A stretch of DNA of 42,971 nucleotides, taken from NCBI GenBank assembly GCA_027490225.1, contig JAIXYK010000015.1, positions 1 to 42,971 of the forward strand, in the 5' to 3' direction. The position numbers and the translations under genes were made by a program. Positions 7,945 through 19,392 of the stretch are shown piece by piece. Positions within the stretch are counted from its first letter, which is position 1. Each line of letters begins with the position of its first letter. The notes below the pieces were generated by a model. It saw only the letters and a list, made by a program, of their open reading frames with translations, was not told where the DNA came from and did not search any database. This DNA comes from Bacteroidota bacterium (GTDB taxonomy: Bacteria > Bacteroidota > Bacteroidia > M30B66).

Positions 7945-8958
7945 TTAGAATATAGCTTTCTCTTCCACTCTATTGGAAGCGATAATTTTGCCAGTTTCTT
8001 TTACCATATTGTCTACTTCTTTTGCAGAAATTTTAATTTGTGAAAGTAGCATTTTCAAATCTTCGTCTGCGGTTTCATTAATATTAATGAGTTCTACACA
8101 AGATAAAAGCCTTACCAATGGTCCTCTTATTTTGTGAGAATTATAAAAAGCAAATTCTGCCAATTGCTTGTTTCTAATAACTAAATCTTGTTCCTGAATT
8201 TTCTTTTGTGTTTGGTCTACCATACCACCAATCATTCTTATAGCCCTTCCGTCTTCATTTCTTATAATGATTCCTTTGTCTTCAACAATTGCATATGAGC
8301 CGTTCTTTCTTTTAAATCGGTATTCATCTGACCAAAAATCGGCGTCTCCGTTTTTAAAAGCATCTAGTTTTGAATAAACTCTTTGTTTGTCATCGGGGTG
8401 TAACAGCTCTACCCACCAGTCTATAGTGTCTTTTACTTCAGTTGCGGGAAAACCAAAAACTTTTTGAATACCTTCACCCCACCAGAGGGTTTCGTTTACC
8501 AAGTCCCAATCCCAGATTACATCATTTGTAGCTTTAGAAATTGTTTTGAATTTAATATCACTGTTGTACAGGTCTTCTCTTAATTGTTTTTCCTCAGAAA
8601 TATCTTGCCCAACTCCCCAAATATTTAAGTCGGCAATAATTGGATTTTTTCTAACCCTAATGGTTAATGAGATATATTTCTGTTTCCCATCTGCACAATT
8701 TATTTTTATTTGATCAATTGATTGAGAAAAGTCCTGGTGTTGATTCCATATTTTTATTATTTCTTCTCTGTAATTTCGTTCTGGAAATAAAAGCAAAAGT
8801 GCTTTTGGATTTCCTATGATAGTTTCCGCACTATAGCCAGTTTCTAATTCACATGCAGTGTTCCAAATACGGATAATTCCAGTTTTATCGAGCGCAGCTA
8901 ACATTACAGGAAATTGCTGTATTACCGTTTGAATGGAGATTGGTTTTTCTACAGACAT
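7945..8958 (-). CDS. Double-PAS protein with H-box (DHp-like) helix but no kinase ATPase domain
   Basis: 337 residues. PAS1 lies at about 8-122 (QFPVMLAALDKTGIIRIWN) and PAS2 of the PAS_3 kind at about 134-255 (WDWDLVNETLWWGEG, ending in MVDQTQKK). A helical segment at about 262-325 carries FAFYNSHKIRGPLVRLL, the H-box of histidine kinases with candidate phospho-acceptor His275. The protein ends there: there are no N, G1 or G2 boxes of a HATPase domain, and the stop codon at 7945 sits 10 bases from the convergent Rieske gene. It is cytoplasmic, with no membrane segment. It could be a sensor phosphorylated by another kinase or a pure dimerisation sensor. Its closest parallel in the window is the protein at 15646-16722. 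Confidence 0.8.
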   Translation of the reverse strand: MSVEKPISIQTVIQQFPVMLAALDKTGIIRIWNTACELETGYSAETIIGNPKALLLLFPERNYREEIIKIWNQHQDFSQSIDQIKINCADGKQKYISLTIRVRKNPIIADLNIWGVGQDISEEKQLREDLYNSDIKFKTISKATNDVIWDWDLVNETLWWGEGIQKVFGFPATEVKDTIDWWVELLHPDDKQRVYSKLDAFKNGDADFWSDEYRFKRKNGSYAIVEDKGIIIRNEDGRAIRMIGGMVDQTQKKIQEQDLVIRNKQLAEFAFYNSHKIRGPLVRLLSCVELININETADEDLKMLLSQIKISAKEVDNMVKETGKIIASNRVEEKAIF

Positions 8959-14084: not shown

Positions 14085-15551
14085 ATGATTCAACCAGAAG
14101 AACTTTTTAAAAAGGTTACTGCACATGCAAAAGAATACGGTTTTGTTTTCCAATCTTCAGAAATATATGATGGGCTCAGTGCCGTTTATGATTATGGGCA
14201 AAATGGTTCGGAATTAAAAAACAACATCAAAGCCTATTGGTGGCAAGCAATGGTGCAATTAAATGAGAATATTGTTGGTATTGATTCAGCAATATTTATG
14301 CATCCTAAAGTTTGGAAAGCTTCCGGTCACGTTGATGGGTTCAGCGATCCAATGATTGACAATAAAGATTCAAAAAAGAGATACAGAGCTGATCAATTGT
14401 TGGAAGAACAAATTGAAAAATATCAAAAGAAAGGCAAAACTGATAAGGCCGAACAATTAGAAGCAGACATGAACGAGGCCTTGAACGATAACAACTTGGC
14501 CAGATTGTTAGATTTAATTGTAGCCCACGAAATAGTTTGCCCAATAAGTGGTACAAGAAACTGGACAGAAGTTAGACAGTTTAATTTAATGTTTAGCACC
14601 CAGATGGGCTCTGTTGCTGATGATGCTGATACAGTTTATTTGAGACCAGAAACAGCACAAGGAATTTTCGTTAACTTCTTGAATGTACAGAAAACCGGTA
14701 GAATGAAAATTCCATTTGGTATTGCTCAAATTGGAAAAGCTTTTAGAAATGAGATTATTGCACGCCAATTCATTATGCGCATGCGTGAGTTTGAGCAAAT
14801 GGAAATGCAATTTTTTGTGCGCCCAGGCACTGAAGAACAATGGTATGCGCATTGGAAAAAAGCAAGGTTGCAATGGCACCTTTCATTAGGTACACCTGCA
14901 GAAAAGTATCGTTACCACGACCATGTGAAACTTGCACATTATGCAAATGCAGCTGTTGATATCGAGTTCGAATTTCCATTTGGTTTTAAAGAAGTAGAAG
15001 GAATCCACTCTCGTTCTGATTTTGATTTGAAGCAACATCAAGATTTTTCAGGAAAAAAGATGCAGTATTTTGATCCGGAAATCAATCAGAATTACATTCC
15101 TTATGTGATTGAAACCAGCATTGGATTGGATAGAATGTTTCTTTTGACCATGTGCAATGCTTATAAAGAAGAAGAAGTTGGCGAGGGTGATAAAATTGAA
15201 ACAAGGGTTGTGTTGGCTTTGCCGCCTCAGTTGGCACCTATTAAAGTGGCTATTTTCCCATTAACAAAAAAAGACGGTCTGCCAGAAAAAGCTAGGCAAA
15301 TAATGGATGAGTTGAAATTAAGCTTCAAATGCCATTATGAAGAAAAAGATGCTATAGGGAAAAGATACCGTCGTCATGATGCAATCGGTACTCCTTTTTG
15401 TGTAACTGTTGACCATGAAAGTCTTGAAAATGATACAGTTACCATAAGGCACCGCGATTCAATGGTGCAAGAAAGGGTGAGTGTAAAAGATCTTCATTCA
15501 ATTATCGACCAACAAGTAAGCATGTCTTCTTTGCTGAAAAAGTTATTGTAA
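14085..15551 (+). CDS. glyS: Glycyl-tRNA synthetase, homodimeric type
   Basis: Charges tRNA-Gly with glycine. It has 488 residues, a single-chain class II enzyme of the archaeal/eukaryotic-like alpha2 kind rather than the GlyQ+GlyS tetramer. The signature VYLRPETAQGIFVNF, motif 2 (FRNEI..RQFIMRMREFEQMEMQFFV) and motif 3 (ETSIGLDRMFLLTM) are all present, followed by the C-terminal anticodon-binding domain (APIKVAIFPLTKKDGLPEKA to the end). An early segment CPISGTRNWTEVRQFNLMF matches the form seen in Bacteroidota homologues. The TATTTTCG sequence in the short gap upstream could be a -7 box, so it may have its own promoter in addition to read-through from the TPR gene. Confidence 0.97.
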   Translation: MIQPEELFKKVTAHAKEYGFVFQSSEIYDGLSAVYDYGQNGSELKNNIKAYWWQAMVQLNENIVGIDSAIFMHPKVWKASGHVDGFSDPMIDNKDSKKRYRADQLLEEQIEKYQKKGKTDKAEQLEADMNEALNDNNLARLLDLIVAHEIVCPISGTRNWTEVRQFNLMFSTQMGSVADDADTVYLRPETAQGIFVNFLNVQKTGRMKIPFGIAQIGKAFRNEIIARQFIMRMREFEQMEMQFFVRPGTEEQWYAHWKKARLQWHLSLGTPAEKYRYHDHVKLAHYANAAVDIEFEFPFGFKEVEGIHSRSDFDLKQHQDFSGKKMQYFDPEINQNYIPYVIETSIGLDRMFLLTMCNAYKEEEVGEGDKIETRVVLALPPQLAPIKVAIFPLTKKDGLPEKARQIMDELKLSFKCHYEEKDAIGKRYRRHDAIGTPFCVTVDHESLENDTVTIRHRDSMVQERVSVKDLHSIIDQQVSMSSLLKKLL

Positions 15552-15645: not shown

Positions 15646-16722
15646 ATGCATCAGTTTAACGGAGAATCAGAAGCGGAAGAAGAATTAAACCGTAGTAAAA
15701 AAGAGCTTTCAGACATGTTTAATCAGTCTGTTGTGCCAATTTGTATTACTAACCATAGAGGTGAGTTTGTGCAAGTTAATGAAGCTTTTTGTAATTTATT
15801 TGAATGCATCACCTCAGATTTGTTAGGCAAGTCTTATATTGATGTTCATTTTCAAGACCTCGAACCTACTGCAAAACAGGAGCTTTTAGATGAGGCAACA
15901 AAAATATTTACCAGCAATGCAACTTTTCACAGAGAAATCAGCATGAAGTCTCTAAAAGGAAAACCGCTAGTTGTAGAGGTAATCTTGAAAAAAATTATGG
16001 TCAATGACAGACCTCATATTTCTGTATACATGATTGACCAGACTGAGAAAAGAGATTTTCAAAGAAGAATCATCGAGCAAAATAAAAAACTCAAAGAATT
16101 TGCATTTTTAACTTCACATAAATTGCGTCAACCGCTGGCTAATATTATGGGTTTGATTGAATTGGTGAAAAGCGAATCTCAATCTCAGAAAGACGTTACC
16201 ATTACTTTCGAAACCATTAGAATGCTTACCAGTCAGTTAGATGGTGTAGTGCATGAAATGAACAATGCTATTACAAAACTGGATGTTGAAGTTGAAAAAA
16301 GCCTTTTTCTTGAAAAAGAAGATGAAGGCAGAATTCAAGACGTTTGGATTGTAGATGATGACCAGGTTATTGGCTACATTACTCGTAAAATGCTAATTAA
16401 TGCTGACCCGAGTTTAAAAATTACTGAATACCTCAGCGCTAAAATGGCATTGGAAAAACTTAGGTTAGACCCGAAAGCTCCAGACATATTATTGCTTGAT
16501 ATTAACATGCCTGGTATTGATGGATTCGAATTTTTAGATGCTTTAAATAAAATGAACTGCTTTGTGAACGTATACATGTATTCATCATCTATTGATCCTG
16601 ATGACGTTAAAAGAGCACGTTCATATCCAATGGTAAGGGATTTTTTATCTAAACCTGTTGATGGGGAAACTGTTAGAAAACTACTAGATATTCAGACCTA
16701 CCAAAGAAGGCAAGTTTCATAA
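15646..16722 (+). CDS. PAS - H-box (DHp-like) - receiver protein without an ATPase domain
   Basis: 358 residues, cytoplasmic. A short coiled segment is followed by a PAS domain (about 22-135: MFNQSVVPICITNHRGEF to DQTEKRDF). The H-box region (about 140-215) contains EFAFLTSHKLRQPLANI with candidate phospho-acceptor His158. A complete receiver domain (about 232-350) follows with the acidic pocket DDD at 237-239, phospho-acceptor Asp285 (LLLDINMPG), Ser313 or 314 and Lys336 (LSKP). There is no HATPase domain between H-box and receiver, where a hybrid histidine kinase would have one. It could pass phosphate between an external kinase and its own receiver. The same H-box layout occurs in the protein at 7945-8958. 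The start is ATG 15646. Confidence 0.85.
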   Translation: MHQFNGESEAEEELNRSKKELSDMFNQSVVPICITNHRGEFVQVNEAFCNLFECITSDLLGKSYIDVHFQDLEPTAKQELLDEATKIFTSNATFHREISMKSLKGKPLVVEVILKKIMVNDRPHISVYMIDQTEKRDFQRRIIEQNKKLKEFAFLTSHKLRQPLANIMGLIELVKSESQSQKDVTITFETIRMLTSQLDGVVHEMNNAITKLDVEVEKSLFLEKEDEGRIQDVWIVDDDQVIGYITRKMLINADPSLKITEYLSAKMALEKLRLDPKAPDILLLDINMPGIDGFEFLDALNKMNCFVNVYMYSSSIDPDDVKRARSYPMVRDFLSKPVDGETVRKLLDIQTYQRRQVS

Positions 16723-16760: not shown

Positions 16761-17768
16761 ATGATGGAAAATCAACATTGGAAGAAATTCAAAATCAATC
16801 TTTTTAAGTCCTTAAATCCGATATTCAGATATTGTTCTTACTGCTTAATAATCTTTCTTTCTTTTTCGTGCAATGCGCCAGAAAAGAAAGGTAAAATTGC
16901 CATAGGGTTTTTAGATGCTTTTGAAGATGCCACCATTGCACAAGCAAAACAAGGTTTTTTTGTAGCACTTAAAGACAGTGGTTTTAATCCTGAAACCAAT
17001 ATTGAAGTTATTTATAGAAATGCGCAGGGTGATATTCCTGTTTTAGCGCAATCTGTTGACTATTTTATTTCACAAAATGTAGCTTTGATTGTTTCTAATA
17101 CAACTTTGTCTACAATAACTGCAGTTCAAAAAACAAGCAGTATTCCCGTTTGTATGATTGTGAGTCCAAGTCCCGAATTAGCTGGATTGCGCACCAAAGA
17201 TGGAAAAGACCCAATAAATTTGTTTGGTGTTTATGAAACGCTAGAATACATTGACACTGCGCTATTCTTGGTAAAAACGATGTTTCCAGATGCCAAGAGA
17301 ATTGGAACACTTATCAACCAGAGTGAGCCACAAAGCAGAGATGCTTTAGAACGAATTCAAAAGCAAGCAAAAGCAATGGGTTGCGAAGTTGTTTCTGTTC
17401 CGGCAAATAACTCAGCAGAAACACAATTAGCTGCAGAGTCATTAATAAACAAAGGAATAGATGTATTCTTTGCCTTGCCTGATAACACGATATTTTCTTC
17501 TTTTGAAACAATAGTAAAATCTTGTGACGCTGCAAAAATTCCCATTTTAACATCTGAAGCAGGACTTGTTTCTCGTGGAGCACTGGCCGCATTTGGCGCA
17601 GATATTTATGCTTGGGGCTATGAATCAGGATTAGAAGCTGTTTACTATTTGAAAACACATAAAATCAGAGCACCTAAAAAACTTTTAAAGCGCCAGCGTG
17701 TTTACAATCCTGTAAAAGCAAAAATGTTCAACATCACCCCTGATTCAACATTTCAAATTCTGCAATAA
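16761..17768 (+). CDS. ABC importer substrate-binding lipoprotein (TrpX-like, PF04392 family)
   Basis: Solute-binding protein of 335 residues. An N-terminal basic stretch and hydrophobic segment end in a lipobox-like LSFSC at 33-37, so it is probably a lipoprotein attached at Cys37. The two-lobed periplasmic binding fold is recognisable from KIAIGFLDAFEDATIAQAKQ, IEVIYRNAQGD, IVSNTTLSTITAVQKTSSIP and RIGTLINQSEP, the pattern of the family that includes streptococcal TrpX. The first in-frame ATG is used; the second ATG (codon 2) is equally good. The stop overlaps the start of the permease gene by one base. The ligand is unknown; tryptophan is only a guess from the family. Confidence 0.85.
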   Translation: MMENQHWKKFKINLFKSLNPIFRYCSYCLIIFLSFSCNAPEKKGKIAIGFLDAFEDATIAQAKQGFFVALKDSGFNPETNIEVIYRNAQGDIPVLAQSVDYFISQNVALIVSNTTLSTITAVQKTSSIPVCMIVSPSPELAGLRTKDGKDPINLFGVYETLEYIDTALFLVKTMFPDAKRIGTLINQSEPQSRDALERIQKQAKAMGCEVVSVPANNSAETQLAAESLINKGIDVFFALPDNTIFSSFETIVKSCDAAKIPILTSEAGLVSRGALAAFGADIYAWGYESGLEAVYYLKTHKIRAPKKLLKRQRVYNPVKAKMFNITPDSTFQILQ

Positions 17769-18637
17769 TGCAGTTTTATTTAACGGCAATAAGTTTGGCG
17801 CTTGCTCTTTCTGGGCTGGCCTGGGGAATATTTCTAACAATAAAGATTTTCAACATACCAGATATTACCACTGATGGTAGCTTTACTTTAGGAGCTGTAG
17901 TTTCTGCAGTGCATCTTTCAAATGGAGGTTCTTGGCCTGTCGCAATTTTACTTTCAATAGTAGCAGGAAGTTTGGCGGGAATGACCACTGGAATTATCCA
18001 TACAAAACTCAAAGTAAATGCACTTTTATCAGGTATTTTGGTAATGACCGCCTTGTATTCAGTTAATTTACTGTGGTTAGGAAAATCGAATTTACCTTTA
18101 CTACAAACTGATAACTTGTTTGCAACTACAAATCCGATTTTTAGCTTTTTTAATTATCAATTTTTCATCCTGATTTTAATAGTTGCTTTGTTATTTTCAA
18201 TGCTTCTTTTTATGTTGAAATCAGACTTTGGAATTGCCATGCGTGCTACAGGTAATGCTGAAGAAATGGCACAGGCTTATGGCGTCAATACCAATAAAAT
18301 GAAAATCATTGGATTGGCCATTGCTAATGGTTTAACGGCATTTTCAGGAAGTTTAATCGCTCAAATTCAGCAATTTGCAGATATTAATATGGGCGTTGGA
18401 ATTGTAATAGCTGGACTAGGTTCTGTAATGATTGGTGAAGCCATCATGCATTTTATTGGTAAAACAGGAATTGCAGCCAAATTGATGGGCGTTTTGTTAG
18501 GTTGTATTCTCTTTAGATGTGTAATAGCTTTTGTACTCGCATCTGGCGCCGACCCAAATTTGTTGAGGTTGATAACAGCAGGTATTGTGCTGGTCTTTGT
18601 TGGCTTAGCTAATTTTTCTTTTAAAAAATCAGGATGA
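17768..18637 (+). CDS. ABC importer permease (TrpY-like)
   Basis: Integral inner-membrane protein of 289 residues with about eight hydrophobic segments, of the branched-chain-amino-acid/ribose permease fold (PF02653). The segment IFNIPDITTDGSFTLGAVVSA near the N-terminus is characteristic of the TrpY/CD3073-like group, and ATGNAEEMAQAYGVNTNKMKIIGLAIANGL contains the EAA-like coupling loop. It is translationally coupled to both neighbours (TAATG overlap upstream, ATGA overlap downstream). Confidence 0.9.
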   Translation: MQFYLTAISLALALSGLAWGIFLTIKIFNIPDITTDGSFTLGAVVSAVHLSNGGSWPVAILLSIVAGSLAGMTTGIIHTKLKVNALLSGILVMTALYSVNLLWLGKSNLPLLQTDNLFATTNPIFSFFNYQFFILILIVALLFSMLLFMLKSDFGIAMRATGNAEEMAQAYGVNTNKMKIIGLAIANGLTAFSGSLIAQIQQFADINMGVGIVIAGLGSVMIGEAIMHFIGKTGIAAKLMGVLLGCILFRCVIAFVLASGADPNLLRLITAGIVLVFVGLANFSFKKSG

Positions 18638-19392
18638 TAGCTTTACAACAAATAAATAAGACATTTAACAAAGGAAATCCTTTAGAAATAAAAGCCCTCA
18701 AGGATATAAACTTGGAATTGAAAGCTGGTTCATTTCATGTTATAATTGGTGCAAATGGTTCAGGAAAATCTACTTTGCTCAATCTTTTGGCCGGAAACAT
18801 CCTTCCTGATTCTGGGCAGATATTATTAAACAATAAATCAATTGAAAAACTTTCAAACTTTGAAAGAAGTAAATTCATTGCCCGCATATTTCAAAATCCG
18901 GTTATAGGAACAGCACCAGATTTATCATTACTCGATAATTTTAAACTTGCTGCTTCAAGAACACATTCCAAAAAGCTTTTGATTAATAATAGCCTGGATT
19001 TTAAAAAGAAAGTAATTGATAGCATTGCCAGTTTGGGAACTGGTTTAGAAAACAGAATTAATCAGCCAATGAGTTCTTTTTCAGGTGGTCAGCGCCAAGC
19101 GCTTTCATTGCTAATGGCTACTTTCGATGACCTTCAATTGCTTTTGTTAGATGAGCCAACGGCGGCGCTAGACCCCTCTGCAGCAAAAACTGTAATGGAA
19201 CTTGCAAACAAAATTATATCAGAAAGAAAATTAACAGCCCTAATGGTTACCCACGATTTAAAACATTGTCTAGATTATGGAACCAACATCCTTCAAATGC
19301 AACAAGGGCAAATCATTAGAAGCATAGATAGTAAACAAAAAGAGCATTTAACGCTTTCTCAGCTTTATGCTTTTTTTGAAAACAAGCATTAA
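18634..19392 (+). CDS. ABC importer ATP-binding protein (TrpZ-like)
   Basis: Nucleotide-binding subunit that drives import, 252 residues. Walker A GANGSGKST is at 39-47, the Q-loop is in RIFQNPV, the ABC signature FSGGQRQ is around 149-155, Walker B LLLDEP is at 170-175, and the switch histidine is in MVTHD. All catalytic motifs are intact. Its ATG overlaps the permease stop by four bases. The three genes form one complete importer, with no enzyme gene that would reveal the substrate. Confidence 0.94.
   Translation: MIALQQINKTFNKGNPLEIKALKDINLELKAGSFHVIIGANGSGKSTLLNLLAGNILPDSGQILLNNKSIEKLSNFERSKFIARIFQNPVIGTAPDLSLLDNFKLAASRTHSKKLLINNSLDFKKKVIDSIASLGTGLENRINQPMSSFSGGQRQALSLLMATFDDLQLLLLDEPTAALDPSAAKTVMELANKIISERKLTALMVTHDLKHCLDYGTNILQMQQGQIIRSIDSKQKEHLTLSQLYAFFENKH

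Follow-up and report, generated by a model that had tools for sequence, protein, structure and literature searches.

The window, a stretch of 42,971 nucleotides from a Bacteroidota genome, carries on its forward strand a gene (15646..16722) for a protein of 358 residues, P0001, in which a PAS domain, a DHp region and a receiver (REC) follow one another and which, judging from Pfam and from its orthologues, has no CA domain. The PAS domain (residues 20–134; 15703..16047) is present in the AF2 model and is matched by two Pfam families (PF00989, PAS, residues 20–121, E 2e-8; PF13426, PAS_9, residues 30–134, E 4.3e-8). The DHp helices, placed by AF2 and the HisKA match, are alpha1 (132–179, with a break at 160) and alpha2 (188–221; together 16039..16308); in hmmscan the HisKA match (156–205, E 1.7e-5) scores 25.2 bits against a cut-off of 26.9, and 29.9 bits when the protein is scanned with its frame neighbours. 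Three DHp residues matter below: the predicted phospho-acceptor His158 (16117..16119; codon checked, aligned in alignment A1), Arg161 at position H+3 (16126..16128), which is invariant across CA-less DHps, and Asp199 in alpha2 (column +41; 16240..16242; codon checked), which is near-invariant. The receiver (residues 233–346; 16342..16683; PF00072, Response_reg, E 3.5e-17; also found by fold search) has the acidic residues, phospho-Asp, Ser/Thr and Lys of an active site, with Asp285 (16498..16500; codon checked, invariant in A1) as the predicted phospho-acceptor. Neither P0001 nor the related P0002 has a Pfam match to HATPase, so both lack the CA/HATPase_c domain by which a histidine kinase is recognised, and the Hpt domain (PF01627) is absent among the families matched at E up to 1; NCBIfam assigns no specific family. 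The arrangement originally predicted, with a PAS domain, an H-box at His158, an intact receiver with Asp285 and no ATPase domain, is thus borne out by Pfam and by inspection of both codons. Position H+1 and position H+4, at which a kinase would have an acid and T/N respectively (roles taken from PMC3510030), are Lys159 and Gln162 in P0001 and Lys and Gly in P0002. A search of plasmids with P0001 gave 21 records, one of which covers at least 80% of it, at 26.6% identity.

The AF2 monomer model of P0001 (mean pLDDT 87.1, pTM 0.47) consists of the PAS domain, helices at 132–159, 161–179 and 188–221 (block pLDDT 67–91) and then the receiver, with His158 in the first helix of a predicted helical hairpin. 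Most matches of the full model in a fold search were PAS, LOV and receiver chains, and the receiver matched 3ilh (Z 19.2, rmsd 1.7 over 126). A model of the DHp alone (hairpin mean pLDDT 88.8) resembles HK853 (PDB IDs: 4jav, Z 9.5, rmsd 2.3 over 83; 4jau, Z 9.2, rmsd 1.5 over 79) and DivL (Z 8.8), but the search leaves the DHp fold unproven because unrelated helical hairpins score equally high (4afl, Z 10.2). Neither Spo0B nor ChpT is among the matches listed, which counts neither for nor against a likeness to them. Of the four-helix bundle that the original prediction had expected around His158, the models thus give a two-helix, DHp-like hairpin in a monomer, which the fold search cannot separate from generic hairpins.

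P0002 (7945..8958, reverse strand; 337 residues) is a PAS-PAS-DHp protein that ends after the DHp, as seen from Pfam and from four orthologues. Its HisKA match (residues 268–321; 7996..8157, reverse strand) is weak and below the cut-off (E 0.021, 15.3 bits), and Pfam matches two PAS domains and no receiver. The orthologues, in G002, G005, G006 and G007, are all about 350 residues long, end just after the DHp and have the H-box SHK[IV]R[GSA]PL. The unusual H-box said to unite the two window proteins is indeed similar in both (SHKLRQPL in P0001, SHKIRGPL in P0002), with Lys after the His in each, but it does not define a class: H+1 is diverse across the wider set of CA-less DHps described below, and the shared H-K was dropped as a signature. 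The genes around P0001, whose products were read without a family search and serve here as context, are an upstream glycyl-tRNA synthetase (glyS-like; 14085..15551, forward strand) and three downstream genes reading as an ABC transporter (16761..19392, forward strand). The glyS-like neighbour recurs beside the orthologues at L002, L003, L004, L006 and L008 (80–84% identical) and at L009 (78%), the first ABC-like gene lies downstream at L003–L007 (at L006 about 1.1 kb on) and the second at L003, L004, L005 and L007, counts that are affected by several short contigs. No kinase or separate receiver was seen around the window genes, and a profile search found no HATPase match on the window contig.

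P0001 has orthologues in seven other genomes of the same family, at 56–65% identity in six and 42% in one, and in all seven ORFs the DHp region leads straight into the REC, no CA intervening. None was found in G005, a genome 73% complete. The uncut orthologues (L002–L006) have 475–504 residues and an additional PAS-like stretch at the N-terminus, missing from the window copy; that at L007 is cut at the N-terminus by a contig end. In alignment A1, which holds 18 DHp-REC sequences (P0001 orthologues and relatives), the DDD triad, phospho-Asp, one Ser and the Lys of the receiver are invariant, and the His is present in 17 sequences. Loss of the His in orthologues had been named beforehand as counting against a phosphotransfer role, and it has occurred in two of eight. 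The G009 orthologue (L008 268–1737, apparently the same contig as L063, 3449–4918, of a Bacteroidetes MAG) has the H-box ASQLRKP, with Ser for the His and Ala for the alpha2 Asp, next to a well-kept receiver. In G004 (L009 1495–2238, reverse strand) the protein beside the glyS-like gene is 248 residues long and runs from a PAS-like stretch straight into a receiver 53% identical to that of P0001, with no DHp; the contig is 101 kb, so the missing DHp is not a contig-end effect. The His is present in the other six, and all eight retain the receiver. A receiver of the P0001 type can thus do something without the His.

The combination of a phospho-acceptor His and no CA domain is not confined to this family. 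We classified 178 DHps of this type in 16 genomes, 122 with CA and 56 without, the latter present in 14 of the 16; as the query profile (A2) itself contained CA-less members, their share is not a prevalence. Set A comprised the window genome, two family members and five genomes picked for DHp-REC or adjacent DHp and REC matches. Of its 174 matches we examined those in 30 loci, in three further loci and in 60 regions, of which 58 surround matches (mostly as far as about E 1e-9) and two were taken for HATPase-only genes; G000:C63, at a contig end, was left out. This gave 103 unique DHps, of which 65 have CA, 27 end 1–23 residues after the DHp, 10 are fused directly to REC and one (L234) was classed as other and excluded from tests. 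Set B was eight large, nearly complete genomes, picked by hand and not at random; 30 loci and 40 regions examined from 136 matches (to about E 5e-11) gave 57 DHps with CA and 19 without. Classification relied on models of the CA, the DHp and the receiver that were built from sequences of this analysis, and the CA model matches none of the 56 CA-less ORFs even at E up to 1. The 46 CA-less ORFs that have no C-terminal receiver stop 1–23 residues past the DHp. For 34 of the 56 genes no receiver lies in the ORF or within 300 nt, a count made on short flanks and with some ORFs N-terminally cut. The window genome itself has 30 HisKA and 39 HATPase matches by profile search, and four CA-less DHps among 14 classified with A2: P0001, P0002, L031 (a 724-residue PAS..DHp-REC protein) and L205 (a 433-residue PAS..DHp protein). 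In ten other CA-less proteins scanned, hand-picked and mostly short, HisKA passed its cut-off in two. Classic Hpt domains are few, with one match in the window genome and 34 across all 16, of which 27 exceed the cut-off, compared with 56 CA-less DHps in the part that was sampled. CA-less DHps are a widespread and mostly unlabelled class that is poorly seen by Pfam.

The class is distinguished less by what follows the His than by the freedom of that position. The phospho-His itself is kept in 54 of the 56 (Thr in L211, Asp in L242), and receivers fused to CA-less DHps keep the acidic residues, phospho-Asp and Lys. At H+1, D, E or N is found in 64/65 DHps with CA against 9/37 without in set A (Fisher p 3.3e-16) and in 56/57 against 7/19 in set B (Fisher p 1.9e-8), or 120/122 against 16/56 overall. 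Val, Lys, Ile, Leu or Met stands there in 29 of the 56 and in none of the 122, and the wider CA-less class shows V, K, E, I, L, Q, S, T, M and others. Among new loci found with a REC-PAS-DHp query (see below), D/N occupies H+1 in 17/17 DHps with CA, and D/E/N in 2/11 without; the contrast is weaker in receiver-seeded named loci (D/E/N in 36/43 with CA, where the others are four His, two Gln and one Tyr, against 4/8 without). Two other positions behave oppositely. Arg at H+3 is found in 56/56 CA-less DHps against 90/122 with CA, and the alpha2 Asp in 53/55 (the other two being Glu) against 44/122. The 11 further CA-less DHps from the REC-PAS-DHp query all have the His, the Arg and the alpha2 Asp, whereas the eight in receiver-seeded named loci all have the Arg and just four the Asp. 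The Arg/Asp pair is better called retained than gained because related CA-bearing kinases often carry it (20 read N-R-D and 20 D-R-D at H+1, H+3 and +41). A group of kinases with CA present (L084, L098, L101 and L077) has His at H+1, in the H-boxes SHHLRSH or AHHLRGP.

A tree computed for all 178 DHps, with column H+1 masked, has eight changes of CA status, compared with a mean of 47.6 (range 40–53) in 200 shuffles, so the CA-less DHps fall into a small number of old clades: the largest has 34 members, another has seven and holds the P0001 and L031 families, and the rest are smaller. The state of H+1 (D/E/N or other) changes twice among the 122 tips with CA and 15 times among the 56 without. 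The tree is a quick one of a short domain, and its supported branches gave one independent pair, which leaves a paired test powerless.

Gene order in relatives gives a picture of how such proteins may be wired. A REC-PAS-DHp query found matches in 57 of 295 genomes of the same taxonomic class, and we examined 30 loci, which lie close to the clade of the query since it was itself CA-less. Ten of these (L331–L338, L341 and L348, in eight genera, with L331 the query's own locus and L334 the same as the earlier L269) hold a CA-less REC-x-DHp protein. At all ten a gene for a CA-bearing kinase lies upstream on the same strand, adjacent or one receiver gene away; a separate receiver lies between kinase and REC-x-DHp at five, and a receiver lies just downstream at five. 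The order kinase, receiver, DHp-His, receiver matches a four-step relay. The same slot is taken by REC-x-CA or REC-x-DHp-CA proteins at L339, L340, L351 and L354. A similar order is found on a named Flavobacteriales contig (L136), where two CA-bearing ORFs are followed by REC-DHp and REC, and at L301 and L303, where short REC-DHp proteins follow a kinase. The REC-DHp proteins of these three loci (L136 4794–5498, L301 2512–3171 and L303 1345–2073; 220–243 residues) have a layout like a fused Spo0F-Spo0B. At L245 (2–6607; G197:C1) three SHDLQEP kinases in a row precede a receiver, a REC-x-DHp protein and a further receiver.

The second DHp-REC gene of the window genome (L031 408–5259; G000:C26:105407–110258) stands back to back with a REC-PAS-DHp-CA kinase, a pairing that recurs in G002, G006 and G008 (L035, L036 and L037). 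Over the whole set a CA-bearing ORF lies within 700 nt of five of the 56 CA-less genes; each of these kinases has a DHp region of its own, in one case (L269) with Arg for the His. The flanks examined showed no CA-only gene up to 700 nt away from the CA-less genes. We also considered whether stand-alone receivers of the P0001 receiver (SSSIDP) type pair mainly with CA-less DHps, and rejected this: among 78 in named loci, 37 lie just downstream of a DHp-CA kinase, five lie next to a CA-less DHp and 36 have no such neighbour.

The sequences show a conserved architecture in which the His and the Asp persist and H+1 has become free to vary, together with the gene order of relatives; from these we infer for P0001 the steps of a phosphotransfer, their direction, their gating, and the use of a separate kinase and a final regulator. 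P0001 would be a PAS-gated, HPt-like phosphotransferase in a His-Asp-His-Asp relay, a reading to which we give about an even chance. Its DHp would no longer serve a CA domain of its own and would work as a histidine phosphotransfer module: a separate kinase would phosphorylate a receiver, the phosphate would move from there to His158, and His158 would hand it to another receiver. The fused receiver, through Asp285, would either donate the phosphate or accept it, in a transfer gated by the PAS domain; P0002 would be the same kind of module with no fused receiver. Loss of the ATPase domain, a freed H+1, a mostly kept His and wiring between receivers are together the expected look of an HPt-like phosphotransferase. 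The members keep the His and have lost the kinase domain, as expected of a phosphotransferase derived from a histidine kinase, with the G009 and G004 orthologues as exceptions. The class as a whole makes a better case for a relay than P0001 does; for P0001 the reading is weakened because two of the eight orthologues have lost the phospho-His, and our confidence was lowered further because that of G004 has no DHp at all. Also counting against it are the surroundings of the window genes, where neither a kinase nor a separate receiver was seen, the 34 CA-less genes with no receiver in the ORF or nearby, the 16 CA-less DHps that still have D/E/N at H+1, and the weak H+1 contrast in the receiver-seeded named loci. 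The idea of a phosphorelay family, suggested from two neighbouring proteins, is supported for a class far larger than these two, with 56 of 178 DHps in 14 of 16 genomes, and is less secure for P0001 itself. The suggestion of a kinase supplied in trans holds only insofar as relatives encode separate kinases just upstream in their operons.

How the His would be phosphorylated, if it is, separates the relay reading from that of a split kinase, in which a complete or His-less kinase would pair with the CA-less DHp in a mixed dimer, the kinase's CA phosphorylating His158 in trans. Evidence for such an arrangement comes from L334 (1462–4001) and L337 (1–2550), in one genus, where the kinase upstream of the CA-less REC-x-DHp gene has the H-box SRDLQEP, with Arg for the phospho-His, and an intact CA, a pairing that is possibly a natural split kinase. 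The minority of CA-less DHps with D/E/N at H+1 and the recurring back-to-back pairing of DHp-REC and kinase genes would also fit, and split kinases are what PMC3591291 proposes for HisKA proteins that have no HATPase. The residue after the His is, however, reported in PMC3510030 to be needed for kinase activity and for nothing else in the kinases studied there, and more than half of the CA-less DHps carry there the aliphatic residues, Met or Lys that none of the 122 DHps with CA has. Delivery of phosphate by way of receivers is thus favoured over a borrowed CA because H+1 is hardly constrained in CA-less DHps. Moreover, the CA ORFs that lie nearby carry their own DHp, no CA-only gene was seen in the flanks, and the partners fused to these DHps are receivers and not CA domains. 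We therefore regard a split kinase as quite improbable for P0001.

A somewhat stronger competitor, still on the unlikely side, is that the DHp is non-catalytic and acts as a dimerisation or receiver-docking platform, or as a linker, in a receiver protein controlled by its PAS domain, with no need for phosphorylation of the His. The G009 and G004 orthologues, which keep the receiver with a Ser in place of the His or with no DHp, are what this would lead one to expect, as are the Thr and Asp at the His position in L211 and L242, and the A2 profile, mixed as it is, matches RetS (E 2.7e-6) and DivL (E 1.2e-3) as well as ordinary kinases. Against it stand the His in nearly all members of the class, in all of the further CA-less DHps and in most P0001 orthologues, and the complete active sites of the receivers; on sequence grounds, these receivers and the kept His argue for probable phosphotransfer in most members. 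The idea that such genes are an artefact of truncated kinases, frameshifts or pseudogenes draws on nothing beyond the short length of some ORFs, and given that no CA match is seen at E up to 1, that ORFs stop so uniformly past the DHp, and that CA-less orthologues recur in several genomes and form clades on the tree, we consider it to have next to no probability.

Returning to the phosphotransferase reading, a broader form of it, which we put forward tentatively as a little less probable than its opposite, is that the HPt step would in this group of Bacteroidota fall in good part to a large and barely annotated class of CA-less DHp sensors acting as dimeric phosphotransferases with their own PAS or other input, so that a His-Asp-His-Asp relay would take up signals during phosphotransfer as well as at its kinase. 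Their marks would be the free H+1, the invariant H+3 Arg and the near-invariant alpha2 Asp, and the last may take over part of the role of the lost acid. If this is true, many apparently incomplete kinases in these bacteria would be functioning components of relays, each with a sensory input, and would escape kinase counts that demand a CA or an above-cut-off HisKA match. They would also be natural sequences that seem to uncouple phosphotransfer from the autokinase reaction, a direct test of the role of the acid at H+1.

Kinase-derived phosphotransferases, HisKA proteins that have no HATPase, and pseudokinases are all known already. Hybrid histidine kinases (PAS-DHp-CA-REC) have the same order of PAS, DHp and REC as P0001, which differs in having no CA between DHp and REC and in not keeping the autokinase residue at H+1. 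Split histidine kinases are represented by CheA3/CheA4 of Rhodobacter and by EnvZ split in vitro; in these too a phospho-acceptor His has no ATPase domain of its own, whereas the CA-less DHps show no CA-only partner gene nearby and an unconstrained H+1. DivL senses DivK~P and RocA modulates CovS, and both resemble the present proteins as DHp-type proteins with no kinase activity that possibly bind partners. They differ in what is lost: DivL has Tyr for the His and retains the CA fold (PMC4211667, in part), and RocA has a putative CA that lacks key residues (PMC7028121, in part), while in the CA-less class the CA is gone and the His mostly kept. The nearest likeness is to Spo0B, ChpT and PhyT, with a DHp-type histidine module placed between receivers, here judging from gene order in relatives. 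PMC5898713 describes PhyT as relaying phosphate from SdrG, a single-domain regulator, to PhyR; it calls the ATPase domain of PhyT degenerated and compares the protein with Spo0B and ChpT. In the CA-less class, by comparison, the CA is wholly absent, and even a degenerate CA fold of the Spo0B/ChpT/PhyT kind is matched at E up to 1 in none of the 56 ORFs. Its proteins also join sensor and receiver domains to the DHp, and a single genome encodes several paralogues. We found no paper describing the class in the open-licence literature, subscription papers being mostly outside that scope; the retrieved passages of a clostridial minireview (PMC11210211) hold nothing bearing on it, and residue names gave no match in PMC7005713. 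A count in PMC3591291 puts 1556 of 42417 HisKA proteins in SMART as having no HATPase, and the H-E/D-x-x-N/T motif used for counting there is absent from P0001 and P0002. Truncated histidine kinases of Archaeoglobus fulgidus, with an HK-like architecture and no HATPase (PMC1183210, in part), resemble the CA-less class in their described architecture.
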